From: Saccharicrinis fermentans DSM 9555 = JCM 21142
Lineage (GTDB): Bacteria; Bacteroidota; Bacteroidia; Bacteroidales; Marinilabiliaceae
Direction: 5' to 3'
DNA: 64,000 nucleotides
Assembly (NCBI RefSeq): GCF_000517085.1
Contig: NZ_KI912107.1
Coordinates: forward strand, 5,825,980 to 5,889,979
Below are positions 10,035 through 59,714 of this stretch, piece after piece. The first letter of the stretch is position 1. Each line of letters starts with the position of its first letter. The translations under genes were made by a program, and so were the position numbers. The notes beneath the pieces are model-generated. The model made no database searches, was not told the DNA's origin, and was given only the letters and a program-made list of their open reading frames with translations.

Positions 10035-10129
10035 AGTATATGAAACGAGCCATGAGAATAGCTTCACACACACAGTGATGATTATTTCTGGCGAATTCCA
10101 TATAACTTTTGAAAGAAAAATATAAACAT
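10035..10129 (+). repeat. Leader repeat copy B, directly upstream of GH95
   Basis: The mini-ORF runs 10040-10078 and encodes MKRAMRIASHTQ then TGA. The gene start at 10130 follows after 51 nt. The outer-stem arms are TATATG (left, at 10038) and CATATA (right, at about 10098). Relative to copy D both arms changed together, a C-G to T-A pair. The inner hairpin is GAA-TAGC-TTC. The spacer ends AAATATAAACAT before the start codon, identical to copy D. Confidence 0.75.
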
Positions 10130-12658
10130 ATGAAAAATCTATCTATCAGGAGATTGTTGTGCTTATTTTCTGTAAGCATGATGATGTTGTTTCTTGTGAG
10201 TGGGTGCAACCAACCTGTAAAAAAAAGTCATTTAAAACTCTGGTATGATGCACCTGCGGCAGACTGGAATGAAGCTTTACCTATTGGAAATGGACGATTG
10301 GGGGCTATGGTGTACGGTATTCCCGTGCAAGAAAATATCCAGTTAAACGAGGGTACGCTTTGGGCCGGAGGTCCACATCGAAATGATAACCCTGAAGCAA
10401 AAGATATTTTGCCAGAGATTCGTCAATTGTTGTTTGACGGTAAGTATAAAGAAGCCCATAACTTGGCCAATGCGAGAATTATTTCTAAAACTTCTCATGG
10501 AATGAACTATGAAACAGTGGGAAATTTGAGATTAAATTTTGATCATGATGACGCGTTTAGTAATTATTACCGTGAATTAGATATTGAGGATGCTGTCAAT
10601 AGAACCGCTTACATCGTTGATGGAGTGGAGTATCAACGAGAAATTTTTACTTCTTTTACTGATCAGGTAATTGTTATTAAATTAACGGCCAGTCAAAAAG
10701 GTAAGATCAGCTTTTCTGCCGCAATGGATCGTCCCGCACCTGCAGTAGTAGATATAGCTACTGAAGGGAATAATATTTTAAGTATGAGGGGTAAAGGAGC
10801 TGATTTAAAAAGTAAAAGAACACCTAAAGGAGCAGCTCCTATTGAGGGCCGTGTGAAGTTTGAATCGAGGTTGAAGATTGTACCGGAAGGGGGCGCTTTA
10901 AGCGCTACTGATAGTACTTTGGTTTTAAAAGGCGCCAATAGTGCAACGTTATACTTATCTGTTGCTACTAATTTTGTGAATTATCAAGATGTTAGTGCAG
11001 ATGAGCACGCGCGAGTTACGGCCTATTTGGCCGGAGCGGAAAAGAAAAGCTATGAACAGTTAATCGCAGATCATTCTGCATTTTATCAAGGTTATTTTAA
11101 TCGAGTAAGTCTTGATTTAGGAGAGACTGATTCCATTAAAAATGCTACAGATGTACGCATACAACAATTTGCTCAAGGAAATGATCCTGCTTTGGCTGAA
11201 CTGTATTATCAGTACGGCCGTTATTTGTTAATCTGTTCTTCACAGCCGGGAGGTCAAGCATCTAACTTACAGGGTATATGGTGTAAGGACTTGGCTCCAC
11301 CATGGAAAAGTGCTTATACGGTAAATATCAATACGGAAATGAATTATTGGCCTGCTGAGCCTACAAATTTGGGCGAGATGCATGAACCTCTTATAGATCT
11401 TGTTAAGGAACTATCTGAAGCAGGTCGTCAAACGGCACGTGATATGTATGGTGCTGATGGGTGGGTATGCCATCATAATACCGACCTTTGGCGGATTTGC
11501 GGTCCGGTGGATGGCGCTACTTGGGGTATGTGGCCCAGTGGTGGTTTGTGGTTGAGCCAGCACTTGTGGGAGAAATTCTTATACAATGGAGATATAAATT
11601 ACCTGAAAGAGGTATACCCTGCCATGAAGGGTTCTGCAGAATTTGTGCTGAGTTTTTTGACTCCAGAACCCGATCATGGATGGTTGATTTTTGCACCGTC
11701 TACTTCCCCAGAAAACAGACCGGCACATCATCCTAATATGGTTAATATTGCTTATGGAACCACAATGGATAATCAACTGATCTTTGATATGCTAAGCAAA
11801 ACAGCTGCGGCAGCCAGTTTTTTAGGTGTGGATGAGGACTTTGTTAAAAAAATTGAGTCTACTATACCGAAATTGGCCCCCAATCAAATTGGTCAGCATG
11901 GACAGATTCAGGAGTGGATTCATGATTGGGACGATCCCAAGGATAAGCACCGTCATATTTCTCAATTATATGGGATGCATCCTTCTAATCAATTCTCACC
12001 TTTCCGTACGCCTGTTTTAGCAGAAGCAGCCAGGAATGTATTGATTTACCGTGGAGATCCTTCCACAGGATGGTCCATGAACTGGAAGATTAATCAATGG
12101 GCTCGTTTGTTAGACGGTAACCATGCCTATAAAATGATGACAGATCAAATTAAGTTGGTTGGGAGGCCTGATTCTCCTAAAGGAGGTGGTACTTATACTA
12201 ATATGTTAGATGCGCACCCTCCTTTCCAAATTGATGGAAATTTCGGTTTTACTGCTGGCTTAACTGAAATGATGCTGCAAAGTCATGACGGTGCGATTCA
12301 TCTGATCCCTGCCTTGCCCGATGTTTGGAAGGCTGGATGTGTAAAGGGCTTGCGTGCGCGTGGTGGATTTGAAATAGAGGATCTGGAATGGAAGGATGGA
12401 GTAATTGAAAGGGTTATTATTAAATCATCATTGGGAGGAAATTGCCGAATTCGTTCTTATTCTCCGCTGACAATGAAGGGGGGAGAAGAACTGACTTTGG
12501 CCGAAGGTGTGAATGAAAACCCTTTCTTTCAAGTGCCAGATATTCAAAAACCAATTATCTCGGATGAAGCCGAACTTAAAGGGTTTTATGTGAAAGATAC
12601 TTATTTGTATGATGTGGCCACAGAGCCGGGAGAATCTTTTGTTTTAATAAAAAAATAA
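10130..12658 (+). CDS. GH95 alpha-L-fucosidase, lipoprotein
   Basis: This is an 842-aa lipoprotein (lipobox LVSGC) of family GH95, which hydrolyses terminal alpha-1,2-linked L-fucose, for example on fucosylated xyloglucan; some members act on alpha-L-galactose. The start [10 protein letters not shown] at 10130 gives a complete signal peptide; the in-frame TTG at 10109 lies in the leader. The N-terminal beta-domain begins [19 protein letters not shown]. The alpha/alpha barrel holds the base-orienting pair [11 protein letters not shown] (Asn399 and Asn401), the acid motif PSTSPEN (Glu528) and [12 protein letters not shown] (Asp702). These match the catalytic residues of Bifidobacterium AfcA. 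All key residues are present, so it should be active. It is controlled by leader copy B. The second GH95-like gene at 29004 is much more divergent. Confidence 0.9.
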
Positions 12659-12737
12659 TGAGAAAACGAACCATGCTTTTTTTTTAATGATGAAGATGGT
12701 GAGTTTCAAATGACTATGTGAAATTAAATCTAAGTAC
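12658..12737 (+). repeat. Degenerate leader repeat copy C
   Basis: The region between the GH95 stop and the next GH43 retains KRTM-like codons (ATG 12658, MRKRTMLFF then TAA), GGTGAGTTTCAAATGA in the right-arm position, and an AT-rich run into the ATG at 12738. Similarity to copies B and D is clear at both ends but the middle is replaced by a T-run. I treat it as a decayed copy. Confidence 0.4.
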
Positions 12738-14093
12738 ATGAAAATATTTATAAGTGTATTAATTATGAGTGTGATGGTTGTTTTGAGTGACGCTCAAAAT
12801 CCGGTTTTTACACATGTTTTTACCGCAGATCCCTCTCCTCATGTGTGGCCCAATGATGACCGACTTTGGGTATATACCAGTCATGATGAGCCGGGGTCTA
12901 ATAACCATTATGGTATGACGGGTTATCATGCATTTTCAACAACAGATATGGTTCATTGGACAGATCATGGTCGTATCTTACATTTGGAGAACGTGGAATG
13001 GGCAGAAAGCCATGCTTGGGCCATGGATGCCGCTTATTATCGTGGTAAGTACTATCTGATATACTGTATGAAAGAGGCCGGGATTGGTCTTTTTAGAACA
13101 GGAGTTGCTCGTAGTGATGTTCCGCAAGGCCCCTTTACTGACCTAGGTTATATTAAGGGCGTTGAATTTGGTCAGGATCCAGCTATTTTTATCGATGATG
13201 ATGAAACCCCATATTTGTTCTGGGGGCATGATAGAAAGTGTTTTGGTGCAGCATTGAATGATGATCTTATGTCTATTAAACCGGAAACATATGTTGATCT
13301 GACTTCTCAATTAAAATATGTATTTGAAGGGCCATGGGTTCATAAGTTCAAAGGAAAATATTATTTAAGCTATCCGGGACTGACGCCTCGTAAGTGGCCA
13401 GAGAAAATGTTTTATGGTGTTGCGGATCAACCCTTAGGACCCTATGAGTTTAAAGGATGTTTTATGGATGATTTTGAGGGGCAAAGTGGAACGAATCATG
13501 GCGGTACAGTTACTTACAAAGGAAAAGATATCATGTTTTACCATAGTGCCTGGCTATCGGGTGGATTAAGCGAAACACGCTGTGTAATGGCTGATTATCT
13601 GAATTATGATGAAAAAGGAAATATTATTTCAATTGTTCCTTCCAAAGAGGGTTTAGGATTGGCTGACCGGACAAAAACAACGATATTATTGGAAGCTGAA
13701 AATGGCTTTGCTGCCGGAGGTGATTTGTACAATGTAATTGTTGATACATGGATCAAGGACTACAGTGGGAAAGGCTACGTGACTAATTTTGATAATCCGT
13801 ATGATCATGTATCCATGTTAGCTCAAGTGGCAAGACCTTCAAAATTTCGCTTTAAAGTCAGGTACGCCTCACCCGATGGAGAATCTAATCATGATGTTTT
13901 GATAAATAGTCATTTGTATAGAGATTTTGTTTTTCCTGCATCCAAGACCTTTCGGGAAATAGATTTTGGTATTGTTGAACTGAAAGAAGGTGATAATTTA
14001 ATACGCATCTTCAAACGAAATTGGAAGCCTTCGAAAGGAGATTTGGCCATTGATTATGTCAAGCTGGAGCAGGTGTTTGAAGATGAAGACTAG
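12738..14093 (+). CDS. GH43 arabinofuranosidase/xylosidase with C-terminal CBM6/35-like domain
   Basis: This is a 451-aa secreted protein with a signal peptide ending near SDAQ. The five-bladed propeller (about 24-310) carries the three GH43 acidic residues: FTADPSPHVW (Asp31, base), GQDPAIF (Asp147) and FEGPWVHK (Glu197, acid). The C-terminal 130 residues (ILLEAENGFAAGG to DLAIDYVKLEQ) look like a CBM6/CBM35 beta-sandwich. The family removes alpha-L-arabinofuranose or beta-xylose from hemicellulose side chains, and the exact specificity is not readable here. It sits between GH95 and GH39 with 79-bp and 40-bp gaps, in keeping with co-transcription. Confidence 0.85.
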   Translation: MKIFISVLIMSVMVVLSDAQNPVFTHVFTADPSPHVWPNDDRLWVYTSHDEPGSNNHYGMTGYHAFSTTDMVHWTDHGRILHLENVEWAESHAWAMDAAYYRGKYYLIYCMKEAGIGLFRTGVARSDVPQGPFTDLGYIKGVEFGQDPAIFIDDDETPYLFWGHDRKCFGAALNDDLMSIKPETYVDLTSQLKYVFEGPWVHKFKGKYYLSYPGLTPRKWPEKMFYGVADQPLGPYEFKGCFMDDFEGQSGTNHGGTVTYKGKDIMFYHSAWLSGGLSETRCVMADYLNYDEKGNIISIVPSKEGLGLADRTKTTILLEAENGFAAGGDLYNVIVDTWIKDYSGKGYVTNFDNPYDHVSMLAQVARPSKFRFKVRYASPDGESNHDVLINSHLYRDFVFPASKTFREIDFGIVELKEGDNLIRIFKRNWKPSKGDLAIDYVKLEQVFEDED

Positions 14094-14133
14094 TGTGTTT
14101 GTCAATAAATAATAATTGAAAGAGATAAAAAAT

Positions 14134-15774
14134 ATGAAGTGTAAATTTTATGTATTGCTGAGCTTTCTTGTGCTTTCGCAATTTAACTATGGGCAAAAAA
14201 GCATCCGTGTGGATGCGGGAACCAAAGGTGAAAAATTTGAACATTTTTGGAGTAAATGTGTAGGAGCGGGTCGAGCGAATGAAGCTTTGCGCGCCGGTTG
14301 GCTGGAACAAATGGAGAAAGTGCAACAAAATTGCGGTTTTGAGTATGTTCGCTTTCATGGGCTTTTCCATGAAGATATGTTTCCCGTATTGAGGGAAAAA
14401 GGAAAACTGGTATATAATTGGCAATATATTGATGATGTTTTTGATCGTTTGTTGGATATGAATGTACGTCCTTTTGTTGAATTGGCCTTTTTTCCCAATG
14501 AGTTTGCCGCAGAAGATTCAAAAACGGTGTTTTGGTGGGAGGCAAAAGTAACTCCTGGACCTGATTTTGCCTCGCAATGGCACGACTTAATTGAGGCTTT
14601 TACCCAACATGTTGTAGATCGTTATGGGATTGATGAGGTGCTTACATGGTATTTTGAGGTATGGAATGAACCTAATTTATATCCTTTCTTTTTTCATGGA
14701 AAGAAATCGCAATATTTTGAGCTGTATAAGCAATCTGCTTTGGCTGTAAAATCGGTTGATGAACGATTGAAAATAGGAGGTCCTGCTACCAGTAATTTTG
14801 TCCCTGATACTCGTTTTGATGGCGAAATAATTAATAATGAGGTGTCGATGGAGGTTTTTAAGGTGGAGGATATCAATACCCTTCAGTGGCATGGTGTGTG
14901 GATAGAGGATTTCCTGAAGTTTTGTGAAAAGGAAAAACTACCAGTGGATTTTATTAGTACACATCCATATCCCACAGATTATGCTTTTAATCCGGAAACC
15001 GGCAAAGGAAGAGGCCTGACGCGTCATGTACATTCTATTATAGACGACTTGGAGTGGTTGCAGAAAATCGTTCAAAATAGTGCCTATTCAAATGCTGAAA
15101 TTCATCTAACAGAATGGAATACCAGCCCTAGTAGTCGTGACCGAATGCATGATTTATTACCGGCAGCCGCCTATATTGTAAAATCGAATCTCGATTGCAT
15201 TGGCCTTACTAATTCTTTGGCTTTTTGGACTTTTACTGATATTTTTGAGGAAAAGGGTGGTGCAGCAAGTATCTTTCATGGTGGATTTGGAATGATTAAT
15301 TTTCAAGGATTGGTAAAGCCTTCTTACCATGCTTATCGTATGTTGCATTTATTGGGCGATGAAAAGTTGTATAAAGATGATGCTGTGTTCGTAAGTCGTA
15401 ATTCTGGCGATGGAAAGATTGTGGCCTTGGCCTATAATTATCCCAAAGAAAATGAGGGATCGGTTCCTGCTGGTTATAAGAGTTATGAGTATTTAAGTGA
15501 GGGTTCATCCAAACAATTGAAGTTGGAACTAAAGCATCTAAAACCGGGTGCGATGTTTCAAATTGAAATACTGGATAAGGATCATGGTAATGTGTGTCAC
15601 TCATGGGAGAAAATGGGAAAACCGGAACCTCCGACGCGTGAACAGATCAAAGTATTGAAAAATGTAGCAGAAAATTTAAAAACAGAAACGGTGGTGGCAG
15701 ATAAGGATGGAAGGCTTACAATAAATAGAGAAATAGCCCCTTGGAATGTTATGTTGATTCAGCAGATTAACTAG
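14134..15774 (+). CDS. GH39 glycosidase, probable beta-xylosidase, secreted
   Basis: This 546-aa protein starts at ATG 14134, which gives the signal peptide MKCKFYVLLSFLVLSQFNYG; TTG 14116 is in frame but unlikely. The barrel contains YVRFHGLFHEDM, the acid/base motif WYFEVWNEPNL (Glu179) and the nucleophile motif IHLTEWNTSP (Glu327). These are the GH39 signatures of beta-xylosidases and related enzymes. A C-terminal beta-sandwich follows (about 400-546). The likely role is release of beta-linked xylose from oligosaccharides trimmed by the preceding GH43 and GH95. The gene converges on the minus-strand DUF4861-like gene, and a hairpin terminator lies between them. Confidence 0.85.
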   Translation: MKCKFYVLLSFLVLSQFNYGQKSIRVDAGTKGEKFEHFWSKCVGAGRANEALRAGWLEQMEKVQQNCGFEYVRFHGLFHEDMFPVLREKGKLVYNWQYIDDVFDRLLDMNVRPFVELAFFPNEFAAEDSKTVFWWEAKVTPGPDFASQWHDLIEAFTQHVVDRYGIDEVLTWYFEVWNEPNLYPFFFHGKKSQYFELYKQSALAVKSVDERLKIGGPATSNFVPDTRFDGEIINNEVSMEVFKVEDINTLQWHGVWIEDFLKFCEKEKLPVDFISTHPYPTDYAFNPETGKGRGLTRHVHSIIDDLEWLQKIVQNSAYSNAEIHLTEWNTSPSSRDRMHDLLPAAAYIVKSNLDCIGLTNSLAFWTFTDIFEEKGGAASIFHGGFGMINFQGLVKPSYHAYRMLHLLGDEKLYKDDAVFVSRNSGDGKIVALAYNYPKENEGSVPAGYKSYEYLSEGSSKQLKLELKHLKPGAMFQIEILDKDHGNVCHSWEKMGKPEPPTREQIKVLKNVAENLKTETVVADKDGRLTINREIAPWNVMLIQQIN

Positions 15775-15810
15775 TGGGTAGTCAATGAAAATGGTTATTG
15801 AAATAGAAAA

Positions 15811-15845
15811 AAAGAGCATCGGTCTGGACTGAGTGCTCTTTTTCT
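15811..15845. terminator. Bidirectional terminator between GH39 and DUF4861-like genes
   Basis: The stem AAAGAGCA (15811-15818) pairs with TGCTCTTT (15834-15841), with A-rich sequence before and T-rich sequence after. It can end transcripts from both convergent genes. Confidence 0.8.
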
Positions 15846-15871
15846 TAGAATCTGAGGTGTGCAGAAAGCTT

Positions 15872-16744
15872 TTATTTGTTTTGTGCGATTTGTTTTACAT
15901 AGGCTTCAAATGCCTTTAAATGCCCCATTGTTTTATCCTTTTCAATGGTCGAAGTCACCCAATGACTAAGGTATTTGGTGGGCTTTGAAATAAAAATGAA
16001 TTGAGTGCCGTCATCTATTTTTTCTGGATAAGTAGACGGGTCAATATGGATGGCAGCACCTACTTTAATTTTTTCGGCAGCTACGTCTTCAGGATGATAT
16101 CCCCACGAAATAATGTAGTGATCCGATTGTTTAATTTTCTGCCCTTTATGATAGTTAATGCCAGTAACAAACTGAATGGGTCCATTGCATAGAGCAAATG
16201 CCTCTACCTTCATTTCTCGGATGCCAGTATACGAAGTAACTCTTACCAAAATATCTACCTTATTTCCTTTATAGGGAATGTCTTCTGAGAGCATCTCCAT
16301 TTGAGAATAGCATTTTTCTTTTCGGACCTTGACGGTACGCATTGAAACAGGAGCAAGTGGAATTATTTTTTCCCCGTCCCATAATCGTATTCCTCCCAAA
16401 CCTACTGAAGATCCAGCTTTATAATAATCCGCTCCATAGCCATTTCTTTGTTCTTGTTCGCTGGGATACCATTTTGCCTCTTTTAATTCAAGACCAGGTT
16501 GTTGTTTGTTATACACGTCAATGGCACAGGCTTTATTATTAAAATATAATCGTAATGCCATCCATTCATTCTCAATGGCAGGACCATGATGTCCGATTTT
16601 TTTGTATAAATCGCCCGAAGCGTCTTGTATTTTATCAACATAAAGGGAGTCTATTCTCAAAAATAAACTCGCGTCGGTTTTGTTTTGTGCCTCCAAGGCT
16701 AGCGATAGCAAGCTGATGAAGAAAAAAAATAAGGTTGTTTTCAT
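15872..16744 (-). CDS. DUF4861-like secreted protein
   Basis: This 290-aa protein (signal peptide MKTTLFFFFISLLSLALEAQ) is the only complete minus-strand gene. I recognise the DUF4861 pattern: GHHGPAIENEWMALRLYF, GYGADYYKAGSSVGLGGIRLWDG, YKGNKVDILVRVTSYTG, FVTGINYHKGQK and WGYHPEDVAAEKIKVGAAI. The function is unknown; relatives commonly occur in uronate or pectin degradation clusters. The fold is probably an all-beta sandwich resembling sugar-active enzymes. The start is fixed by the signal peptide and by leader repeat E, which ends at the ATG. Two leader units in tandem precede it, and the promoter region shares a 12-mer with uxaB. A role in uronate-containing glycan use is inference. Confidence 0.65.
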   Translation of the reverse strand: MKTTLFFFFISLLSLALEAQNKTDASLFLRIDSLYVDKIQDASGDLYKKIGHHGPAIENEWMALRLYFNNKACAIDVYNKQQPGLELKEAKWYPSEQEQRNGYGADYYKAGSSVGLGGIRLWDGEKIIPLAPVSMRTVKVRKEKCYSQMEMLSEDIPYKGNKVDILVRVTSYTGIREMKVEAFALCNGPIQFVTGINYHKGQKIKQSDHYIISWGYHPEDVAAEKIKVGAAIHIDPSTYPEKIDDGTQFIFISKPTKYLSHWVTSTIEKDKTMGHLKAFEAYVKQIAQNK

Positions 16745-16834
16745 ATGATTATAATTTGTTTTTCAGTTGCCATATGGAACTCACCGTGATAATCATTCTC
16801 CTGTGTGAGAGATCACTCTCATGGCTCGTTTCAT
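16745..16834 (-). repeat. Leader repeat copy E (tandem unit nearest the DUF4861-like gene)
   Basis: Reading the minus strand, the mini-ORF 16834-16793 encodes MKRAMRVISHTGE then TGA, and exactly 48 nt follow to the ATG at 16744. The inner hairpin is GAGA-GTGA-TCTC, where copies B and D have GAA/TTC, a compensated A-T to G-C pair. The outer arms CATATG (left) and CCATATG (right) are kept. Confidence 0.75.
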
Positions 16835-16926
16835 ATGATTATATTTATTTTTCAGTGGTTATATGGAACTCGCCTAGCTTAATCATTCCCCTGTGTGTGA
16901 AACAATTTTCATGGTTTGTTTCATGC
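16835..16926 (-). repeat. Leader repeat copy F (outer tandem unit)
   Basis: The minus-strand mini-ORF 16924-16883 encodes MKQTMKIVSHTGE then TGA. The next ATG, 48 nt later at 16834, is the mini-ORF start of copy E. The repeat period is therefore exactly 90 nt (42 coding plus 48 spacer). The hairpin GAAA-ATTG-TTTC is formed in a register one base different from the other copies. The outer stem is weaker here. Confidence 0.7.
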
Positions 16927-16992
16927 GCTAAACTTGTTTTTTATGCCTAATAGGGCGTTAAAATTTATTAGGAGCGCCCAATGTTATTTGTA

Positions 16993-17031
16993 CAAATATA
17001 TAAAATATCTCGTTGAGTTTGCGCACACGCA
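16993..17031 (-). promoter_or_regulatory. Candidate promoter of the DUF4861-like gene with shared operator motif
   Basis: On the minus strand TATATTTG (17000-16993) matches TAnnTTTG. Just upstream, plus-strand positions 17020-17031 read TGCGCACACGCA, the same 12-mer found at 735-746 in the uxaB promoter. No clear -33 box is visible. Co-regulation with uxaB is inferred from this shared motif. Confidence 0.45.
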
Positions 17032-17339
17032 TATTCGATTTCCATACAAGTACCATCAGGTAGATCGGCACAATGGTTGACGTTATTAAGATAAAGTGGA
17101 TATTTAATTTCTCAGCTTGTCTGAAAATTTTTGTATGCAATCCCCAAAATACCACACCTGGATTTTGGAACCTGTTCCCCCAAAAGAGAATGAAGCAGGA
17201 TGTTGGCTATGACTTATACTGCGGAGTTCTGTTTGGATGTTAACATTTATTGCATATAAAGGAAACAAGCGTACCATATTTGTTAACATTCTTACCCATA
17301 TGCAAAACAATACGAAACGGGGCTTTTAGCTACTTTAGA

Positions 17340-17347
17340 TAGATTTG
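17340..17347 (+). promoter_or_regulatory. Candidate -7 box of the first SusC/SusD operon
   Basis: TAGATTTG matches TAnnTTTG 42 bp before the SusC start codon. The expected upstream TTTG is not clear, so the call is tentative. Confidence 0.35.
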
Positions 17348-17388
17348 TGAAGAATTAAATCAGTTATGTTTTTATAAATCATTTTTCT

Positions 17389-20586: not shown

Positions 20587-20596
20587 TGAAAAAAGA

Positions 20597-22240: not shown

Positions 22241-22258
22241 ATGTTAAAATGTAAGACA

Positions 22259-24100: not shown

Positions 24101-24122
24101 TTTAATTTCTGTTTTTAATGAT

Positions 24123-24163
24123 AAGCCAGGCTCGTTGTATAGAGGCGAACTTGGCTTTTTTTC
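24123..24163 (+). terminator. Rho-independent terminator after the SusCD-binding protein operon
   Basis: AAGCCA at 24123 pairs with TGGCTT, and a second block (GGCTCG with CGAAC) extends the stem, followed by seven T. It lies between 24100 and the GH5 start at 24179, so GH5 may depend on read-through or its own promoter. Confidence 0.8.
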
Positions 24164-24178
24164 AAAAAAATATACCTT

Positions 24179-25864: not shown

Positions 25865-25876
25865 AAAAAATAACTT

Positions 25877-28738: not shown

Positions 28739-28760
28739 CTTATTTATTGGGAATCATTTT

Positions 28761-28792
28761 ATCCCGGCAAAGCATCATTTGCCGGGATATTT
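28761..28792 (+). terminator. Strong terminator after GH31
   Basis: ATCCCGGCAAA (28761-28771) pairs perfectly with TTTGCCGGGAT (28778-28788) around a 6-nt loop, followed by an AT-rich run. It closes the GH5-GH31 unit. Confidence 0.85.
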
Positions 28793-28816
28793 AATTTATC
28801 CCGAAAAATGCTTTGG

Positions 28817-28919
28817 AAAATCTATAAGTCAATAGAAATGCTTCCAATCCAATAGCAAGCTAACTTGTTTCATGGCACTTCTAACGCTCACGAGTAAGTT
28901 CTAATGCATCATCCGGGTT
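28817..28919. repeat. Intergenic repeat family 2, copy R1
   Basis: The 3' part TAAGTTCTAATGCATCATCC (28895-28914, continuing GGGTT) matches the reverse complement of 63219-63243 at 23 of 25 positions. The 5' part (28817-28847) resembles 38908-38938. It lies 85 bp upstream of the GH95-like gene. Function unknown. Confidence 0.5.
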
Positions 28920-29003
28920 TAAAATAGGAGCGATTTTATGCATGGGTACATGAGTGGTTACCTAGTATTCATGAACTCCTTTGAGTATAAAATTTGGTGA
29001 ATA

Positions 29004-31427: not shown

Positions 31428-31446
31428 ATAGATAACAATAGTGTAC

Positions 31447-33624: not shown

Positions 33625-33637
33625 TTATCCTTAATAA

Positions 33638-36600: not shown

Positions 36601-37729
36601 TGGGAAGGTAAGTATTTGGTTGCGTAAAGATAAACATGATCAAATGGTGCATATTTCAGTGAAGGATACTGGTATTGGCATCAAAAAAGAGGATCAGGAT
36701 AAGGTTTTTGTTCGTTTTTATCAATCAGAAAATAATAAAAAATTAGGGGTGTCCGGGAGTGGTATCGGTCTTAATTTGGTGCGTGAAATGGTACAGCTGC
36801 ATCATGGTACAATAAGTCTGGAAAGTGAAGAAGGGAAAGGATCTACCTTTATTGTGTCACTGCCGGTGGAAAGACAGGAGGGTACGCCTGTGATGACGGA
36901 AGAACCAGAGAAAGAGCGAAAGGATGAGGGAGGGAAGGAGATAGAAGGAAATAGCTCCACAGGTGATGCTAAGCCAATCATTCTGTTGGTTGAAGACAAT
37001 GTGGATTTTCGGGTTTTTATGAAAGAAACTTTACAAGATCACTTCCTGGTTCATGAGGCCTCGGATGGAAAAATGGCCTATGAGATGGTACATGAAATAT
37101 TGCCTGATTTAATTATTAGTGATGTGATGATGCCTAATATGGACGGCCTAGAATTGTGTGATATATTGAGAAAGGATATTAGAACTTCGCATATTCCAAT
37201 TATTCTACTGACTGCCCGCACGGCCGATGAGGATAAAATAAAGGGGCTGGAAATTGGGGCTGATGACTATATCACCAAACCTTTTAATATGGAATTGCTC
37301 TTGCTTAGAATCCATAAGCTGATAGAGAAAAGAAATAAGATACAGAAGCAGTTTCAGAAAACTGTAGATATATCTCCCGGCGAAGTAACGATCACATCAA
37401 TGGATGAAAAACTTATTAAAAAAGCAGTGCTTTTAGTGGAGAACAAAATGTCTCAGGCCGACTTCTCGGTGGAAGATATGAGTAAGGAATTGGGAATGAG
37501 TCGTGTTTATCTGTATAAGAAAATGATGGCCATCACTGGTAAGTCGCCCATTGAGTTTATACGTATTATACGACTAAAACGAGGCGCCCAATTATTGGAG
37601 AAAAGCCAAATGCAAATTGCTGAAGTGGCATATCAGGTAGGATTTAATAGTCCAAGACTATTTTCTAAATATTTTAAACAGGAATATGGTATGTTACCTA
37701 CCGCTTATGCAAAAGCCCAAAATAAATGA
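33638..37729 (+). CDS. Hybrid two-component system regulator 1
   Basis: This is a 1363-aa inner-membrane sensor, kinase and transcription factor in one chain. A signal peptide is followed by two seven-bladed beta-propellers of WIGT-type repeats (about 25-700), a Y_Y_Y domain (FKVKASNNDGVW, about 730-795) and a transmembrane segment (about 804-826). The histidine kinase has ISHEFRTPL (His864) and the ATP-binding motif DTGIGI. A receiver domain (LLVEDN, phospho-acceptor Asp1162 in ISDVMMP) and an AraC-type DNA-binding domain (about 1255-1360) follow. Such proteins sense oligosaccharides in the periplasm and induce nearby SusCD operons. It is very similar to the regulator at 44637, with identical length. 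Confidence 0.95.
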   Translation: MKKALAVLIFIFCFLFVVAQKQYSFLQVDNADGLVNNQVTCIHKDTRGFIWIGTMAGISRYDGTSFVNYKHSTTDTASIVDNYIVNIQEDFKGNLWIETSLGYTVYDIHKEKFYKDVSQYLKLDTKGSDIERVYCGDKKGLWIKFFQEKYYGLYDSLRFSVKNVFVEKREGNDFVVDFVHTHQNIYYLFNTGRVECYNDSSYKRIFETDFLQGKLGTDSLSSSIFIDAEKDIWYYGNNKGIYHYNSLSGQWNRYTIDSKPISLSSNLIKKIIQDDKGLIWIGTDHGGVDVLNKYSGQINKIYHHSDNHKSVAQNSITDLYMDNNNIIWIGTFKNGLSYYHESIHKFPHFTHVLSDETSLPYSDVNCFAEDKKGNLWIGTNGGGIIYFDRKNNTYTSYRHDKNDPVSLSSDVVVSLYIDAYGALWVGTFAGGLNLFDGKQFKRYQYGSPSAQGLGNNNIWSIVEDTNQQLWVGTLGGGIYYYHREDDTFLPLPNKGIVNLPTVFVNKITRLASGNMFIATANGIIFYNVAEQRYKYHPVDNRTKPYPVANKTVNDVLEDSRGLLWTATREGLYVFDPNSDFIKCFTEEDGLPQDIINCIEEDESRRIWVSKSTGLSQIIVKELSPQNNYSFYIYDYTEEDGLQGKEFNPNASYKTSNQELIFGGANGFNLFKPQEIKYNKVLPKVVFTDFQVYNQSISPDSKVRNIKILENSVTSTRKIEIKHSMNVFTIDFTALEFFIPEKNRFKYMLEGFNDEWLMLENSAHKVTYTNLNAGDYYFKVKASNNDGVWNDNYAQLHIKVLPPFYATSIAYILYLVLIVLSLVYSRYLMLKRERIKFDMEQERLQAKRNHEMDEMKLRFLTNISHEFRTPLTLILTPLYKLQELVKPKEERKLLEVIDRNARQLLDLVNQLLDFRKLELHGLKYNPSYGDIVVFLQKISDHFVDAFAKKQIELSFNSEMEQYMLHFDKDKLHKVIMNLLSNALKFTSENGKVSIWLRKDKHDQMVHISVKDTGIGIKKEDQDKVFVRFYQSENNKKLGVSGSGIGLNLVREMVQLHHGTISLESEEGKGSTFIVSLPVERQEGTPVMTEEPEKERKDEGGKEIEGNSSTGDAKPIILLVEDNVDFRVFMKETLQDHFLVHEASDGKMAYEMVHEILPDLIISDVMMPNMDGLELCDILRKDIRTSHIPIILLTARTADEDKIKGLEIGADDYITKPFNMELLLLRIHKLIEKRNKIQKQFQKTVDISPGEVTITSMDEKLIKKAVLLVENKMSQADFSVEDMSKELGMSRVYLYKKMMAITGKSPIEFIRIIRLKRGAQLLEKSQMQIAEVAYQVGFNSPRLFSKYFKQEYGMLPTAYAKAQNK

Positions 37730-37773
37730 GTAATAGGTCTTTATTTTGATACTTAATTAAAAACATATATATA

Positions 37774-38862
37774 ATGAAACATCGATTCAGTTTAGGTATT
37801 ACCATATATCTAATGTTTATTTTTTTAATTTCTTGTTCTGAGCAGGAACAAAATATTCAATTTGATAATCCGGATTTGAATTATGAAGGTAGGATTGAGT
37901 ATGGGGCGGATGCCGCTGTTTTTTCTTGGTCAGGAACATCTGTTACAATGCAATTTAAAGGAACAGGAGTGTCAGCCTTGTTGCAGGATATGGATACTGC
38001 CAATTATTATAATGTAATTCTGGATGGTGAAGTGGTATCTAAAATACATATTGACACCTTGAAACATGCCTATGTATTGGCCTCGGGTTTGCCCAAAGGC
38101 AAACATACAATTCAGCTTTTTAAACGAACAGAATGGGATAAAGGTCAAACTCTCTTTTATGGGTTTACAATAGAAAAAGGGGGACGACTATTGCCGTCAC
38201 CTGCGCCCAAAAAACGGAAAATGGCATTTTATGGTAATTCTATTACTTGTGGATATGGCAACGAAGATTTTACCGGGAAAGATCGTCCGTTTGGATACTT
38301 TCAGAATAACTATGAGGCCTATGGTGCTATCACCGCTCGTCATTACAATGCGCAATATCACTGCATTGCTAAAAGTGGAATTGGGATAACGGTTAGCTGG
38401 TTTCCAATGATTATGTCAGAGATGTTCGATAGAATAGATGCAACTGATTCAACCTCCGTTTGGGATTTTTCTCAATATACGCCAGATATTGTGGTTGTAA
38501 ATCTTTTTCAAAATGATTCGTGGATCGTTAATAGGCCTAATTATGAGCAGTTTATTAGTCGATTTGGTACGAAAAAACCCAATGAGGATTTTATCATTAA
38601 TGCCTATAAAAATTTTATTGCTTCTTTACGAACTAAACATCCTCAATCGTATATTATCTGTGCTTTGGGTAATATGGATGCGACCATAGAAGGTTCCTTG
38701 TGGCCTGGTTATATCCAGGCGGCTGTGAACCAATTAAACGATGATCGGATGTATACCTGTTTCTTCCCTTTTAAAAATACAGGAGGGCATCCTAAGGTGG
38801 ATGAACATCATGCCATGGCAAATCAATTGATTGGCTTTATTGATCAAAATATTGCATGGTAA
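37774..38862 (+). CDS. CE2-type carbohydrate acetylesterase, lipoprotein
   Basis: This 362-aa lipoprotein (lipobox LISC) removes acetyl groups from polysaccharides. An N-terminal jelly-roll (about 25-145, with VTMQFKGTGVSALL) precedes an SGNH hydrolase domain. The Ser motif is MAFYGNSITCGYGNED (Ser156), the oxyanion Asn is in LFQNDSW, and the C-terminal His is in TGGHPKVDEHHAMA. This two-domain order is characteristic of CE2. CE2 enzymes act on O-acetylated xylose, glucose or mannose. It lies 44 bp after the regulator gene and ends before a terminator. Confidence 0.82.
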   Translation: MKHRFSLGITIYLMFIFLISCSEQEQNIQFDNPDLNYEGRIEYGADAAVFSWSGTSVTMQFKGTGVSALLQDMDTANYYNVILDGEVVSKIHIDTLKHAYVLASGLPKGKHTIQLFKRTEWDKGQTLFYGFTIEKGGRLLPSPAPKKRKMAFYGNSITCGYGNEDFTGKDRPFGYFQNNYEAYGAITARHYNAQYHCIAKSGIGITVSWFPMIMSEMFDRIDATDSTSVWDFSQYTPDIVVVNLFQNDSWIVNRPNYEQFISRFGTKKPNEDFIINAYKNFIASLRTKHPQSYIICALGNMDATIEGSLWPGYIQAAVNQLNDDRMYTCFFPFKNTGGHPKVDEHHAMANQLIGFIDQNIAW

Positions 38863-38907
38863 CCGGCTTTGGGTAATGTATGTTTTCAAAAAAAGAAAAA
38901 TCATTTC

Positions 38908-39042
38908 AAAATCTATTACGTATTAGAATTGTTGCCAAGCAGCCTGTCGGCTAACTCGTTCCCATTCTTCATAGTGGTATTATCCTTCATAATAAATCGT
39001 TGATGAATGGTACTTTTCAATTCTCATAACGAAGTTCTAATT
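38908..39042. repeat. Intergenic repeat family 2, copy R2
   Basis: The left part (38908-38938) matches R1 at 23 of 31 positions. GCTAACTCGTT and CGAAGTTCTAAT further on match R1 in the same order. ATTAGAATT and AAGTTCTAAT form inverted arms. It is more diverged than R1 versus R3. Confidence 0.35.
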
Positions 39043-39078
39043 AAACAGCGGTGCATTGGCACCGCTGTTTACATTTTT
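39043..39078 (+). terminator. Strong terminator after CE2
   Basis: AAACAGCGGTGC (39043-39054) pairs perfectly with GCACCGCTGTTT (39059-39070) around a 4-nt loop, followed by ACATTTTT. Confidence 0.85.
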
Positions 39079-39125
39079 GTACAATTTGTAAACAAAACAT
39101 ACATTCTTAATTGCTGTGCAAGTGG

Positions 39126-39133
39126 TAGTTTTG
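39126..39133 (+). promoter_or_regulatory. Candidate -7 box of GH42
   Basis: TAGTTTTG matches TAnnTTTG 38 bp before the GH42 start and follows a terminator, so a promoter is expected here. The -33 element is unclear. Confidence 0.4.
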
Positions 39134-39171
39134 TGACAGTGGAGTTGTAGGGAACTGTAATGATTTAAGAT

Positions 39172-41262
39172 ATGATTATGATCAAAAAGAGGTTGATAGT
39201 AGCTATGTTTTTGGTGGGAGTATGTTCTTCCATATTAGCTCAGAATTTTTTTCCAAAAAAAGACTTAATGTCTGTTGGGGTTTATTACTATCCTGAACAT
39301 TGGTCGCCTGATCAGTGGGAGCGAGATGTGAAAAATATTGCTAAACACGGTTTTGAATTTATTCACATGGCAGAATTTGCCTGGGCGCAGATGGAACCAA
39401 CCGAAAGACAATTTGATTTTTCATGGCTCGATCGAATGGTAGAACTGGCTGAAGCAAATGGTCTTAAAATAATATTGGGAACGCCAACAGCTTGTCCTCC
39501 GGTTTGGTTAGGTGAGAAATATCCTGATATTTATATGATGGACGCCAACTATCAGCGAAAAGAGCATGGAACAAGAGCCAATTTATCCTTATCAAATCCT
39601 TGGGTAAAGGAATATACAAAGCGCATTGTAACGGCTATGGCCAGGCGCTATGGGAACTGTAAAACGGTAATGGGCTGGCAGATAGATAATGAGCCTGAGG
39701 CAAAGGAAGATTATAGTGAAGCAGCTCAACAAGCCTTTCGATTGTGGTTAAAGGATAAGTATGGTTCCGTGGAGATATTAAATGAAGCTTGGGGAACCGC
39801 ATTTTGGAGTCAGCGCTATGCTTCTATCGATGAGGTTAGGATTCATAATGCCTCCAATGTAGGTTGGTGGGGTGTGAATCCTATTGCTTTGTTGGATTAT
39901 AAAAGATTTACGGCTGATACACAGGCGGCTTATCTGGATCTGCAGGCGCATGAGTTGCGCAAACATATCGCGAAATATCAATTTGTCACAACAAACTATG
40001 TGGCAAAGGGAAGCCAGTCTGATCCTGGAAGAAGCCAGCAAATGGATTTCGCTTCTTTTACTGCTTATCCGAATTATGGAAGTGCTAACTTGGGGGAGTT
40101 GGGTTTTCGTTTGGGTGATTATTCTGTATTGATGTTTGCCAATGATTATTACCCATCGCTAAATGGTACGTCAGGCGTTATGGAGCTGCAACCGGGACAG
40201 GTAAATTGGGCACAGTATAATGCATTGCTTCAGCCAGGAACTGTGCGTATGTGGTTATGGCATTGTTTTGCCGCTTCCAATTCTTTTGCCTGTACTTATC
40301 GTTACCGACAAGTGTTATACGGAGCGGAACAGTATCATCATGGTATTACCTCCACCGATGGGCTTAGTTTGAGTCAGGGAGGCAAGGAATATGTCCAAGT
40401 CATACAGGAAATCAAACGTCTGCGTGAATTGTATCAACCTCATTTGACAATGCCGAAAAAATTACAGCAACGAAAAGCAGCTATTTTGTGGTCCTTTGAT
40501 AATCTGTGGAGTCTGGAACGGCAGAAACAAACTAATCAGTGGAATACATGGAAACATATGCAGCGCTATCAGCAAGTTTTGCATTCCCTGGGAGCTCCTG
40601 TTTCTTTTATCTCAGAGCAGGATGATTTTAATGAATATCCCTTTTTAATAGTTCCTGCCTATGAAATGGTTGATGAGGCTTTGGTGGAAAAATGGAAAGC
40701 GTATGTACGTCAGGGAGGAAAGCTGATTATTAGTGCACGGACAGGTGCCAAAAATAAAAATGCACATCTGTGGGAAGATAACTTGTCTGGCATTATGAAT
40801 AGCCTGATTGGAGGTGAGCTTACTTCTTTTGATATGCTGCCTAAAGGAAAAACGGGTAGTATCATGATGAATGGTAAAGCGTATTCCTGGAGTGCATGGG
40901 GCGAACATATGAGGCCTTATGAGCATGCCGGAGTCCTGGCTAGTTATGATGATCAGTTCTTTCAGGGGACCGCGTGCGTAATATCCAATGAAATAGGACG
41001 TGGAAAAGTGTGGTATTTGGGAGTGGTGTCTTGCGATGGCCTTCTGGAGAGGGATGTGATAAGGAATGCTTATGAACAAAGTAAAGTAGGTGTTGAAAGT
41101 TATCCTGAAGGGGTTCTTGTAGGTTATAGAGATGGTTTTATGGTGGCGGTTAACTATTCTTCAGAGGACTATATTTTACAGTATGCAGGTCATTATTTGG
41201 TGGGAGATCGCATCCTAAAACCAGCAGATGTGGCTGTGTGGATGGTTGATGAAGGCATATGA
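39172..41262 (+). CDS. GH42 beta-galactosidase, secreted
   Basis: This 696-aa protein with a signal peptide (cleavage near SILAQ) hydrolyses terminal beta-galactose. The catalytic barrel begins MSVGVYYYPEHWSPDQWERDV. It has the acid/base motif GWQIDNEPEAK (Glu174) and the nucleophile in GVMELQPGQVNW (Glu338). The trimerisation-like alpha/beta domain (about 390-600) and a short C-terminal beta-domain complete it. In this cluster it would remove beta-galactose, such as that capping xyloglucan side chains. ATG 39172 and 39178 are both possible. The stop codon overlaps the ATG of a doubtful 114-codon frame at 41259. Confidence 0.9.
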   Translation: MIMIKKRLIVAMFLVGVCSSILAQNFFPKKDLMSVGVYYYPEHWSPDQWERDVKNIAKHGFEFIHMAEFAWAQMEPTERQFDFSWLDRMVELAEANGLKIILGTPTACPPVWLGEKYPDIYMMDANYQRKEHGTRANLSLSNPWVKEYTKRIVTAMARRYGNCKTVMGWQIDNEPEAKEDYSEAAQQAFRLWLKDKYGSVEILNEAWGTAFWSQRYASIDEVRIHNASNVGWWGVNPIALLDYKRFTADTQAAYLDLQAHELRKHIAKYQFVTTNYVAKGSQSDPGRSQQMDFASFTAYPNYGSANLGELGFRLGDYSVLMFANDYYPSLNGTSGVMELQPGQVNWAQYNALLQPGTVRMWLWHCFAASNSFACTYRYRQVLYGAEQYHHGITSTDGLSLSQGGKEYVQVIQEIKRLRELYQPHLTMPKKLQQRKAAILWSFDNLWSLERQKQTNQWNTWKHMQRYQQVLHSLGAPVSFISEQDDFNEYPFLIVPAYEMVDEALVEKWKAYVRQGGKLIISARTGAKNKNAHLWEDNLSGIMNSLIGGELTSFDMLPKGKTGSIMMNGKAYSWSAWGEHMRPYEHAGVLASYDDQFFQGTACVISNEIGRGKVWYLGVVSCDGLLERDVIRNAYEQSKVGVESYPEGVLVGYRDGFMVAVNYSSEDYILQYAGHYLVGDRILKPADVAVWMVDEGI

Positions 41263-41603
41263 TCATCATTGGTATTCTGGAAGTGATGGTATTTATCATT
41301 TTGATCATATATCAAAAACATAATCGTAGGTACAACCGAATTGTTAAATCTATTTTTGGACTACAATATGATATGATAGTAGTATGGCCAGTGTCAATAA
41401 TTAGTCTTTGCAAGAAAACTCCAAATACTGCGTTATTCTCATTTTTGAAACAGTCATTTACAATCAGTAAACTCCTTGGTTTCAAAAATATCGAAAGCCT
41501 TGTCTTTGAAGCTTTCTTATCAAAGACAGAAAAATCAGTCGTTTTCTTGCAGCCACTAATTAGACAAACAGGAGTACGATTCGTTTGGGTGAGTTTTATA
41601 TGA
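41259..41603 (+). other. Doubtful 114-codon open frame overlapping the GH42 stop
   Basis: The frame starts with ATGA overlap and a hydrophobic stretch (IIIGILEVMVFIILIIY), which superficially resembles a coupled membrane peptide. The remainder runs straight through the nested inverted repeats at 41405-41556 and through a decayed leader repeat, and matches nothing I know. I think it is chance coding. Confidence 0.15.
41405..41556. repeat. Nested inverted-repeat element, MITE-like
   Basis: The outer arms TGCAAGAAAAC (41409-41419) and GTTTTCTTGCA (41541-41551) are perfect. Inside are TTTTTGAAAC (41442-41451) with GTTTCAAAAA (41479-41488), TTTAC (41457-41461) with GTAAA (41467-41471), and TGTCTTTG (41501-41508) with CAAAGACA (41521-41528). 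TAATTAG flanks it on both sides (41398-41404 and 41557-41563), a possible 7-bp target duplication. No transposase is encoded. Confidence 0.55.
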
Positions 41604-41627
41604 CAATGTATTAAAATATAAACATAT
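41562..41627 (+). repeat. Truncated leader repeat copy H
   Basis: ACAAACAGGAG, then GGTGAGTTTTATATGAC and AAAATATAAACATAT (41613-41627), line up with the 3' part of copies D and B. The 5' mini-ORF is missing, and the palindromic element lies where it should be. The conserved ATG at the end is ATT here, and the gene starts 15 nt later. Confidence 0.4.
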
Positions 41628-41641
41628 TAAATACAAGCATA

Positions 41642-43252
41642 ATGAAGAAGATATTAAAGAAATGGAGTGTGATCATCGTATGGTTGTGGTGTATGCTTGG
41701 GTGGCTTGCTGCGCAGGAGCTTCCTACGACCTTTAAGAATCCTATTCTGGCAGGTTTTCACCCTGATCCTTCTATTTGTAGGGTGGGGGATGATTATTAT
41801 TTGGTGAATTCAACCTTTGTGTGGTTTCCAGGTTTGCCAATATATCACAGTAAAGATTTGGTGAACTGGAAATTAATAGGGCATGCTATTGATAGGCCTG
41901 ATCAGGTGAATTTAGATGGTTTGCCTGATAAGTTGGGTCTGTTTGCGCCAACCATACGCTATCATGATGGTCTGTTTTATATTGTTAATACCTGTGTGGG
42001 GTGTAAAATGAATTTCTATATAACTGCCAGTAATCCTGCAGGACCGTGGTCTGACCCGATATGGCTAACTGATGCACCGGGTATTGATCCCTCGCTGTAT
42101 TGGGATGAGGATGGTACTTGTTACTATACGGGCATGACGGGAGTAGAAAAGGAAGAGTGGCCTACGCAAACGGTCGTTTTTAACCAAGAATTAGATTTAC
42201 AACAACAGAAGTTGGTAGGTGATCGTTATTACTTAACGAATGGACATGCCAATAATGCATCATATACCGAGGGGCCACATATATATAAAGTAAAGGACAA
42301 ATATCTATTGTTGGTTTCGGAGGGTGGAACAGGACTGTATCATGCATTAACAGCTCATCATAGCGATTCGATCAATGGACCTTATGTTTCTGATTATATC
42401 AATCCTGTGATGACCCATCGTCATTTGGGCGAAGATTATCCGTTGCATGCCATTGGGCATGGAGACCTGATACAGACTCAAAATGGCGAGTGGTGGTGTA
42501 TAATGTTGGGTAAACGTCGCATCCATAAAGAAACCACCTTGGGTAGAGAGACCTTCCTTTCGAAAGTAATCTTTGAAGGTCAAACTCCTATTTTTAACCC
42601 CGGTGAAGGAAAGGTGTTAATGGAACAACTACGACCGGATTTACCTTGGACACCTGTGGAAGAAGACGCGACGAGAGATGATTTCCAAGGAGAATCTCTT
42701 GGGATGAAATGGTGTACCATCCGTACTCCTCAAGAGACATTTTATAGGGTGGATGAGGGAAAATTACGATTAAGGCTTAGAAAACAGGTGATGGATAGCT
42801 TGGTTAACTCATCTGTTTTGTTGCAGCGTGTTCAGCATCATTGCTTTGAGATGACTACTAAAATGAGCTTTCGTACATCCAAACATCATGAGCAAGCAGG
42901 TATTACCTTGTATAGAACCAATGAAAACAATTATAAGTTGATGAAAGATGATGAGGGTTTGGTTCTCATAAAGTCTTTTGAAGGAAACAATGAAGTCGTA
43001 GAACGGTTGCCATACAAAAGCAAAGAGGTTTATTTGCATGTGGAGGGAAGCGGTTTGAAAGTTCAGTTTAGTATAGGGAAATCGTTGCATAATTTGAAAC
43101 CCATTGGAGGTATGCAGAGTTTAGTAGTGATTGCTGATGGTCATGGCAATACTCAATTCAATGGGCCTGGGATAGGTATGTATGCAAGTAGTAATGGTAA
43201 AGAATCTGATAATTGGGCCATCTTTGATTGGTTTGAGTATAAGGGTTTGTGA
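41642..43252 (+). CDS. GH43 arabinofuranosidase/xylosidase with C-terminal beta-sandwich, secreted
   Basis: This is a 536-aa secreted enzyme with a signal peptide ending LAAQ. The propeller begins NPILAGFHPDPSICRVGDDY and has the three GH43 acids: HPDPS (Asp42), GIDPSLYWDEDG (Asp149) and YTEGPHIYK (Glu210). A second beta-sandwich (about 340-536, with QAGITLYRTNENNYKL) is the accessory domain of large GH43 subfamilies that include xyloglucan arabinofuranosidases such as BoGH43A. It would remove alpha-L-arabinofuranose or beta-xylose. It is the third propeller enzyme in the window and belongs to a different subfamily from the one at 12738, which has a CBM instead. GH27 follows after leader copy D. 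Confidence 0.87.
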   Translation: MKKILKKWSVIIVWLWCMLGWLAAQELPTTFKNPILAGFHPDPSICRVGDDYYLVNSTFVWFPGLPIYHSKDLVNWKLIGHAIDRPDQVNLDGLPDKLGLFAPTIRYHDGLFYIVNTCVGCKMNFYITASNPAGPWSDPIWLTDAPGIDPSLYWDEDGTCYYTGMTGVEKEEWPTQTVVFNQELDLQQQKLVGDRYYLTNGHANNASYTEGPHIYKVKDKYLLLVSEGGTGLYHALTAHHSDSINGPYVSDYINPVMTHRHLGEDYPLHAIGHGDLIQTQNGEWWCIMLGKRRIHKETTLGRETFLSKVIFEGQTPIFNPGEGKVLMEQLRPDLPWTPVEEDATRDDFQGESLGMKWCTIRTPQETFYRVDEGKLRLRLRKQVMDSLVNSSVLLQRVQHHCFEMTTKMSFRTSKHHEQAGITLYRTNENNYKLMKDDEGLVLIKSFEGNNEVVERLPYKSKEVYLHVEGSGLKVQFSIGKSLHNLKPIGGMQSLVVIADGHGNTQFNGPGIGMYASSNGKESDNWAIFDWFEYKGL

Positions 43253-43284
43253 GTTCTATATGGCCATTGAAAATTTAATTAAAA

Positions 43285-43378
43285 TCATATGAAACGAGCC
43301 ATGAGAATAGCTTCACACACAGAGGGATGATTATTTCTGGCGAGTTCCATATGACTTTTGAAAGAAAAATATAAACAT
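43285..43378 (+). repeat. Leader repeat copy D, directly upstream of GH27
   Basis: The mini-ORF runs 43289-43330 and encodes MKRAMRIASHTEG then TGA, with 48 nt to the GH27 ATG at 43379. Outer stem: TCATATGAAACGAGCC (43285-43300) pairs at 13 of 16 positions with GGCGAGTTCCATATGA (43339-43354). This would occlude the mini-ORF start codon. The inner hairpin is GAA-TAGC-TTC. This is the best-preserved copy. Confidence 0.78.
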
Positions 43379-59622: not shown

Positions 59623-59714
59623 TACATGGAATGAGTCGTGGTAATTGTTTTACATACAGTAGGATAGTTGGTTTAGGTGAGTTTCATGTGATCTTAATAA
59701 TAAATTATAAACTC
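59623..59714 (+). repeat. Leader repeat copy G
   Basis: ATG 59626 begins a 14-codon register ending TAG at 59667, the same length as intact copies, but codon 3 (CGA elsewhere) is TGA. The start of the next gene lies 47 nt later. The outer stem changed on both arms (ACATG with CATGT, a T-A to C-G pair relative to copy D). The inner hairpin GTAA/TTAC is also intact. Confidence 0.6.

Follow-up and report, generated by a model that had tools for sequence, protein, structure and literature searches.

What kind of sequence brings a short structured repeat, with a 13-codon open reading frame (ORF) of its own, to the start codons of unrelated genes? The question is raised by a 64-kb stretch of the genome of Saccharicrinis fermentans DSM 9555 = JCM 21142 (contig NZ_KI912107.1, positions 5,825,980 to 5,889,979; hereafter the window), for which the initial annotation had described such a repeat and proposed a leader-peptide or translation-coupling switch. 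Our analysis points elsewhere: the repeat is probably a non-autonomous mobile element, some 90 bases long, that inserts between the ATG of a gene and the AAA that follows it. It appears to be widespread and recently active, to target start codons and to carry a guide for its own start-codon end. Each unit has the layout ATG/AAACGAGCC-hairpins-GGCGAGTTCCATNTG-AT-rich-CAN'ATG/AAA, with slashes at the limits of the insert.

Copies in the window were located by nhmmer, which recovered all six described earlier (A, B, D, E, F and G) at their places (Table 1). A 21-base core pattern, drawn up after the copies had been seen and allowing up to 3 mismatches, matches the window five times, whereas 100 shuffles give 0.00 matches on average. 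Pfam agrees with the downstream genes as first named, finding a GH95 catalytic domain (10130), Melibiase_2 (43379, previously called GH27), DUF4861 (16744, minus strand) and, for the IPT lipoprotein gene, TIG and SGBP_B domains (59715). Of the copies said always to point toward a downstream gene, B, D, F and G end on the ATG of one, but copy A adjoins none: the next ORF, a GH31, begins 217 bases further downstream. The remark that no described family matches agrees with Rfam, which has no match in the window at gathering score. A permissive Rfam search of five loci returned two matches only, both at chance level, and literature searches, with most subscription journals lying outside their reach, found nothing naming this element.

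Searching the genome and its relatives, as had been proposed, establishes that the repeat is real and far more numerous than the window reveals. A covariance model built from 25 S. fermentans copies matched all 150 scored candidates in that genome (150 of 5195). The S. fermentans DNA surveyed further, 1.15 Mb in total, consists of stretches around model matches and 13 arbitrarily chosen 20-kb stretches; nhmmer finds 197 copies in it (95 plus, 102 minus strand), 6 of them in the arbitrary stretches. Across the family, matches at E 1e-5 occur in 43 of 71 genomes and 15 of 21 genera, with 1 to at least 57 copies per genome. Counts within one genus vary from 2 to at least 57, and one genus (g20) has no copy in any of its 15 genomes. 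An exact two-part pattern, which gives a lower bound, matches 5 of 198 genomes across the order, two of them outside the family. In a genome-contig collection from which S. fermentans itself may be absent, the exact pattern retrieves a single record, Breznakibacter xylanolyticus (Marinilabiliaceae), and copy D has no match in the phage and plasmid collections queried with it. Among viral contigs the exact two-part pattern occurs once, near a contig end (L321, IMGVR_UViG_3300033562_001108, 219-279, minus strand).

The placement of the copies is strikingly uniform. In S. fermentans, 118 of the 192 copies that reach the end of the model sit on an ATG that begins a frame of 60 codons or more, and 106 of the 118 share one offset; of the 74 left over, 47 continue into a further unit, which leaves 27. 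An ATG of this kind also lies at the end of 73 of 117 copies from relatives, for 72 of them at the offset seen in S. fermentans. The gene then continues with AAA as its second codon in 97 of 108 S. fermentans cases, and positions +1 to +3 after the terminal ATG are A in 97, 99 and 95%. The 118 downstream genes are diverse and unrelated, and include housekeeping genes. Eight of nine sampled downstream proteins score above a curated NCBIfam cut-off (ksgA, aroA, leuB, N-acetylornithine carbamoyltransferase, methylglyoxal synthase, peptidase T, a rimK-type protein and arsenite methyltransferase); the remaining protein, similar to 2-phosphosulfolactate phosphatase, falls below it. A fixed spacing to the stop codon of the upstream gene was considered and rejected, as stops were found in 118 of the 192 copies and scatter over positions -200 to +53 relative to where the element begins. 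The earlier idea of a portable structured module aimed at downstream genes is upheld.

The same cannot be said of the mini-ORF. In a leader peptide or attenuator, translation of its 13 codons would control the gene that follows, and 13 codons are indeed readable in 66 of 163 S. fermentans copies and 51 of 112 copies from relatives. The expected TGA end, however, is reached in 55 of 163 and 53 of 112, the left ATG is missing in 39 of 163 and 3 of 112, and in some relatives hairpins of altered length put the reading out of register, so that the frame is not kept outside the window. Nor does the substitution pattern suggest a peptide: in the 92 S. fermentans copies with a 42-base frame, rare substitutions are spread evenly over codon positions (20/21/18), and nonsynonymous, synonymous and stop changes number 45/11/3 against 45.4/12.2/1.4 expected under neutrality, leaving no trace of coding selection. 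The left ATG has another explanation. In 122 presumed first copies, taken as those that have AAACGAGCC intact and are not preceded by an obvious unit (an imperfect filter, some left flanks being remnants of older units), the left triplet is ATG in 110, GTG in 3, ATA in 3, CTG in 2, AAG in 2, TTG in 1 and TAG in 1. The most natural interpretation is that this triplet was once the host gene's own start codon and was left outside the insert, and the small peptide gene looks like a by-product of insertion. We therefore give the leader-peptide reading very little credence. At position 5808942 of S. fermentans, and in relatives at L222, L230 and L202, the left ATG is read in frame into the downstream gene, giving an N-terminal extension that starts MKRAM.

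Copies that share an identical 82-base core bear on the extent of the insert and suggest recent spread. The two largest such groups, nine copies and four copies of a second variant, lie at scattered genes (10 of the 13 are at genes), and we read the limits of the insert from where their identity stops; to the right of CAN'ATG the gene goes on directly with AAA. Tandem arrays of units are present in S. fermentans and in relatives. At two S. fermentans borders the stop codon of the upstream gene is the left ATGA of the element, so that removing the insert leaves an ordinary ATGA overlap of two genes. One of these borders precedes a phosphatase-like gene, which we take to be comB; the other border genes are presumably MatE-like, histidine kinase and response regulator genes. 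Among five relatives that lack the element before the phosphatase-like gene, the two genes overlap in G003 and G004, lie a few bases apart in G005 and are separated by a longer spacer in G001 and G006. At the kinase/regulator border, an orthologue search among the relatives gave no readable empty site. Few insertions appear to be shared: among 191 downstream ORFs there are 32 cross-genome pairs at E 1e-10, 3 of them above 70% identity, a comparison that undercounts sharing because it included only 73 copies from relatives. We favour mobility because identical copies lie at scattered genes, because units form tandem arrays, and because of the range of counts within one genus, the few shared insertions and the lack of depletion of guide variants (below). 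Two S. fermentans copies with the rare variant GTTACTTATG lie at neighbouring genes (870739 and 871649, the first encoding arsenite methyltransferase), which suggests local copying.

The guide carries the clearest covariation. Base N of its internal CATNTG forms a Watson-Crick pair with base N' of the terminal CAN'ATG in 139 of 147 copies, against a mean of 68.6 and a maximum of 86 in 2000 shuffles. These 147 were drawn from 280 copies by requiring a simple pattern at guide, terminus and left end alike, with identical copies kept separate; 60 come from S. fermentans (56 of them A-T) and 87 from relatives (GC 35, AT 32, CG 13). When this filter is omitted, N and N' are paired in 89% of 246 non-redundant copies against 64% expected, and their corrected mutual information, 0.56, exceeds that of every other pair of columns separated by 4 or more, the runner-up reaching 0.22. 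In a set of 42 sequences the pair is GC in 17, AU in 15, CG in 7, GU in 2 and other in 1. Guide and start-codon context thus vary jointly, through CATATG, CACATG and CAGATG. By contrast, the base preceding the left ATG does not track the guide in relatives (33% among first copies, n = 76, and 9% among tandem copies, n = 11), as expected of host DNA; in S. fermentans it matches in 79% of 47, the two bases being nearly always A and T, an agreement that reflects too little variation. The guide therefore belongs with the right end of the element itself, at the start codon of the gene. An outer stem proposed in the initial annotation, joining the mini-ORF ATG to CCATAT, is predicted in some copies, but the covarying partner of CATNTG is the base before the downstream start codon. 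The GTTCCAT of the guide region is also complementary, with one mismatch, to the ATGAAAC of the left junction.

Structured covariation, which the initial annotation had left to be tested statistically, is present in the fold as a whole. In the 42 sequences, 92.6% of cells are paired in the proposed structure against 89.7 in shuffles, 36 cells are changed on both sides against 11.6, and the covariation score is 0.140 against 0.090; none of 500 shuffles is as high on any of the three. Helix P1 (AAAC/GTTC and GCC/GGC around tandem GA) is always paired but uninformative, because its pairs are nearly invariant. Comparison of its arms supports helix P2, which is paired in 41 of 75 S. fermentans copies against 23.8 in shuffles (maximum 31). 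Arms found among the copies include TGAGAA/TTCTCA, its replacement TGTCGA/TCGACA, TGAGTA/TACTCA, TGAGCA/TGCTCA and TGAGAG/CTCTCA. In relatives, where the arms hardly vary, the corresponding test is not significant (54 of 78 paired against 50.8, maximum 59). A third hairpin, P3, is tentative, its pairing being weak (73% of cells).

Because the best-supported covariation involves the start-codon region, the main rival to a mobile element is a cis-regulatory RNA in which the guide CAUNUG masks the start codon CAN'AUG and an alternative pairing with the upstream AUGAAAC frees it, switching translation. Elements lie in sense orientation at gene starts, as such a switch would. All five RNAs that we folded are predicted to be more stable than the shuffle mean, with z between -1.9 and -3.5, and one of these predicted folds (L204) pairs the guide with the start codon. 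The CAN columns of S. fermentans copies are also poor in rare variants, with 0.33 per site, whereas the spacer has 2.3 and the CAN columns of relatives 2.33. The guide, however, shows no such depletion (3.8 per site against 2.3 in the spacer, in a rough test), the genes behind the element are unrelated and include housekeeping functions, the downstream ORFs give only the three cross-genome pairs above 70% identity (an undercount), copy number swings within one genus and falls to none throughout g20, and identical copies and tandem arrays resemble transposition. We consider a switch alone unlikely. The element may have both mobile and regulatory roles, and it may affect translation of the gene behind it, since its internal hexamer is complementary to the start-codon region.

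As a mobile element, the repeat would act as follows. Insertion would turn x-ATG/AAA-gene into x-ATG/AAACGAGCC...CAN'ATG/AAA-gene. The original start codon of the host would stay outside, on the left, where it opens a meaningless mini-ORF, and the right end of the element would bring a fresh ATG after an AT-rich leader, so that the gene retains a start site. Both site choice and end recognition would depend on base pairing by the guide GTTCCATNTG, whose complement is present in CAN'ATG at the right end of the element itself and, but for a single mismatch, in the left-junction ATGAAAC and the target ATGAAA. We infer that this pairing serves mobility, that the cut falls exactly after ATG with the terminus as cleavage site, and that the element is transferred as single-stranded DNA, in the manner of IS200/IS605, by a separate enzyme.

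The comparison with IS200/IS605 rests on layout. In IS608 the target is retained on the left and guide sequences lie 5' of the hairpin base (PMC5934647). The likeness extends to insertion just 3' of a short fixed target that is kept on the left (here ATG in 110 of the 122 first copies) and to a guide that base-pairs with ends and target (here N with N'; PMC5934647). Read on the bottom strand, the element consists of a target TTTCAT, an AT-rich linker, the guide, the hairpin foot, the hairpins and GTTTCAT, and the guide CAN'ATGGAAC stands directly 5' of the hairpin foot, much as in IS608 (PMC5934647). Unlike IS200/IS605, the element has one hairpin complex and a single guide of 6-10 bases that would serve both ends, no linked Y1 transposase was found at 16 loci and no lagging-strand bias was seen, and its target is a start codon, which it restores. 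We thus say that it resembles IS200/IS605 in its apparent working, without assigning it to that family.

The same features could in principle arise at the RNA level, if a structured RNA were joined into an mRNA at AUG/AAA and copied back by a reverse transcriptase. Such a route would suit the sense orientation of the elements at genes, the favouring of start codons over other intergenic ATGAAA sites and the absence of a replication-strand bias, and the pairing of the guide has something of a parallel in group II introns, with their exon-binding sites. However, four element-rich genomes (G012, G016, G024 and G049) have no RVT_1 match, and group II intron families have no match in the window or in five loci. 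We regard insertion as RNA as quite improbable. The S. fermentans genome has 29 reverse transcriptase domain matches, the most of any of the 71 family genomes.

Several results weigh against a mobile element of the kind proposed. The first concerns the enzyme. Within the family, 37 of 43 element-positive genomes carry a Y1 transposase domain, as do 16 of 28 element-negative ones (tallied by eye), a loose association, and six element-positive genomes have no Y1 domain. Reverse transcriptase domains are found in 28 of 43 and 14 of 28, respectively. Presence and absence across the 71 genomes thus do not support either enzyme as an obligatory partner. S. fermentans itself has 4 Y1 matches (24-37 bits), two of them with internal stops. 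In none of the 16 Y1 loci examined (these 4 and 12 fetched from the many family matches) do units flank the Y1 gene as ends, and no mobilising enzyme was found. At one locus (L172) a full unit lies on the opposite strand about 740 bases from the Y1 match, before another gene; a partial copy (E 6e-4) lies close to a RAYT-like locus (L267), and a 10-base match is found downstream of an IS200-type gene (L264). None of the three resembles an element end. No autonomous parent emerged among 87 unpaired ends judged by eye, which are mostly diverged or other-type units, usually with a diverged other half next to them; the 1-4 kb intervals between some of these ends were not searched for genes. Nor is there a bias to the lagging strand: of the elements with E below 1e-8, 120 of 176 are co-directional with replication against 508 of 750 genes, where the origin was set from the GC skew of incomplete sequence and the genes used as baseline come from the same stretches.

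Other contrary points concern position and structure. No base-exact empty site was found; the relatives are only about 64-72% identical at the border, and the cut position is thus inferred, not proved to the base. Start codons are used beyond what the ATGAAA hexamer predicts (118 start to 27 other sites, against 43 to 76 available in 324 kb, a count that includes the elements' own left ATGAAA), so the hexamer is insufficient as a full explanation of position. From this preference, and from the location of most identical-core copies at genes, it follows that either a further factor makes insertion favour start codons or losses elsewhere are quick. The paucity of CAN variants in S. fermentans could mean selection on the start region. 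Two of the five structure measures are unremarkable (72 of 500 shuffles as high for pairs with double changes, 231 of 500 for further pair types), and in the first 25 S. fermentans copies covariation is weaker, with 3 of 500 shuffles as high in score and 32 of 500 in cells paired.

Comparison with other repeat classes leaves the element apart. Integron attC sites were set aside, since the core does not seem to fit GTTRRRY. Like REP/RAYT repeats, the element is short, structured, high in copy number and non-coding (PMC3733652, PMC8266576), and unlike them, on our reading, it is not a short tagged palindrome and sits at gene starts. GC-rich REP-type palindromes (CCCCGAA...TTCGGGG) are nested as separate insertions in some copies from relatives (L203, L204, L206, L208 and L239). 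With the bacterial miniature inverted-repeat transposable elements RUP, ERIC and YPAL (PMC2229807) it shares a non-autonomous nature, a length below 200 bases and the ability to alter mRNA; it differs in that no terminal inverted repeats with TA ends were seen and in its target, ATGAAA. TAACTGA heptamer repeats are likewise abundant near start codons of unrelated genes, but they are tandem heptamers, and the accessible part of PMC4679880 describes no guide or insert-supplied start codon.

Tentatively, we go one step further and suggest that the repeat may represent a start-codon-seeking, guide-paired mobile family that has replaced the initiation regions of more than 100 genes in one lineage, has thereby rewired their translation and is moved by an unrecognised class of enzyme. 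If so, a mobile element would be aimed at the most sensitive bases of a gene and be tolerated because the start codon is handed back, and one repeat would be able to exchange, within a single genome, the initiation regions of more than a hundred genes. The covariation of guide and end makes this targeting logic directly testable and could lead to a new transposition enzyme in Marinilabiliales-type bacteria. For annotation it calls for caution, as mini-ORFs and some N-terminal extensions would derive from insertion.

Table 1. Copies of the repeat and their parts in the window (positions are those of the window)
Feature	Position	Strand	Remarks
Copy A	793-885 (nhmmer)	+	Guide region diverged; final ATG opens only 9 codons
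Copy B	nhmmer 10039-10132; insert 10043-10132	+	AAACGAG...CATATG; ends on GH95 ATG 10130-10132
Copy B left ATG	10040-10042	+	Putative former start codon of GH95 gene
Copy E	nhmmer 16924-16832; insert 16921-16832	-	Upstream member of tandem pair with F
Copy E final ATG	16834-16832	-	Doubles as left ATG of copy F
Copy F	nhmmer 16835-16742; insert 16831-16742	-	Subfamily GAGAGTGATCTC; ends on DUF4861 gene ATG 16744-16742
Weak partial copy	41561-41627	+	Model positions 25-93; E 5.8e-6; 13 bases before an ORF start
Probable 3' half of decayed older unit	43247-43291	+	nhmmer E 2.3e-4; tandem, just upstream of copy D
Copy D	nhmmer 43288-43381; insert 43292-43381	+	AAACGAG...CATATG; ends on Melibiase_2 gene ATG 43379-43381
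Copy D mini-ORF	43289-43330	+	Left ATG and first 39 insert bases
Copy D hairpin P2	43302-43317	+	Arms TGAGAA / TTCACA
Copy D guide GTTCCATATG	43344-43353	+	CATNTG pairs with terminal CAN'ATG
Copy D right end CATATG	43376-43381	+	Holds start codon of downstream gene; complementary to guide
Copy G	nhmmer 59626-59717; insert 59629-59717	+	Diverged; ends on TIG/SGBP_B gene ATG 59715-59717

Related units accompany the element. A second type (ATGAAACTGGCATGGCCAG...CACACAGGTGAATGATT...GTTTCGCTAATTTTTAAACATATG; for example L273-L302) has at least 41 matches in S. fermentans, with 40 of 124 candidates scored. It has the ACACAGGTGAATGATT core in common with the first type, and the CATNTG guide was not seen in it; of 30 copies retrieved, 20 have their end at a gene start, and many lie 3' of an end like that of the first type. 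In a third type the first hairpin is longer (CGACCATGTAAATTTGATTATCCAAATTTT or CGAACATGAATTTTAGCATTCTAAAAT) and the guide is that of the first type; it is found in relatives (L202, L205, L207, L208, L210, L217 and L245) and in S. fermentans at 2725966, 2730332 and 2219478. At three further S. fermentans sites (711384, 2742931 and 2873762) the element is followed by AAAGCTTCAAAGACAAGGCTTTCG, where the ATG opens no long ORF. A separate repeat, AGTTGAAGAAAAGTAACGAAGTGACTTCTTTTGAAGCC, is present with a near copy on the minus strand of the S. fermentans stretches at 101762 and 4640000.

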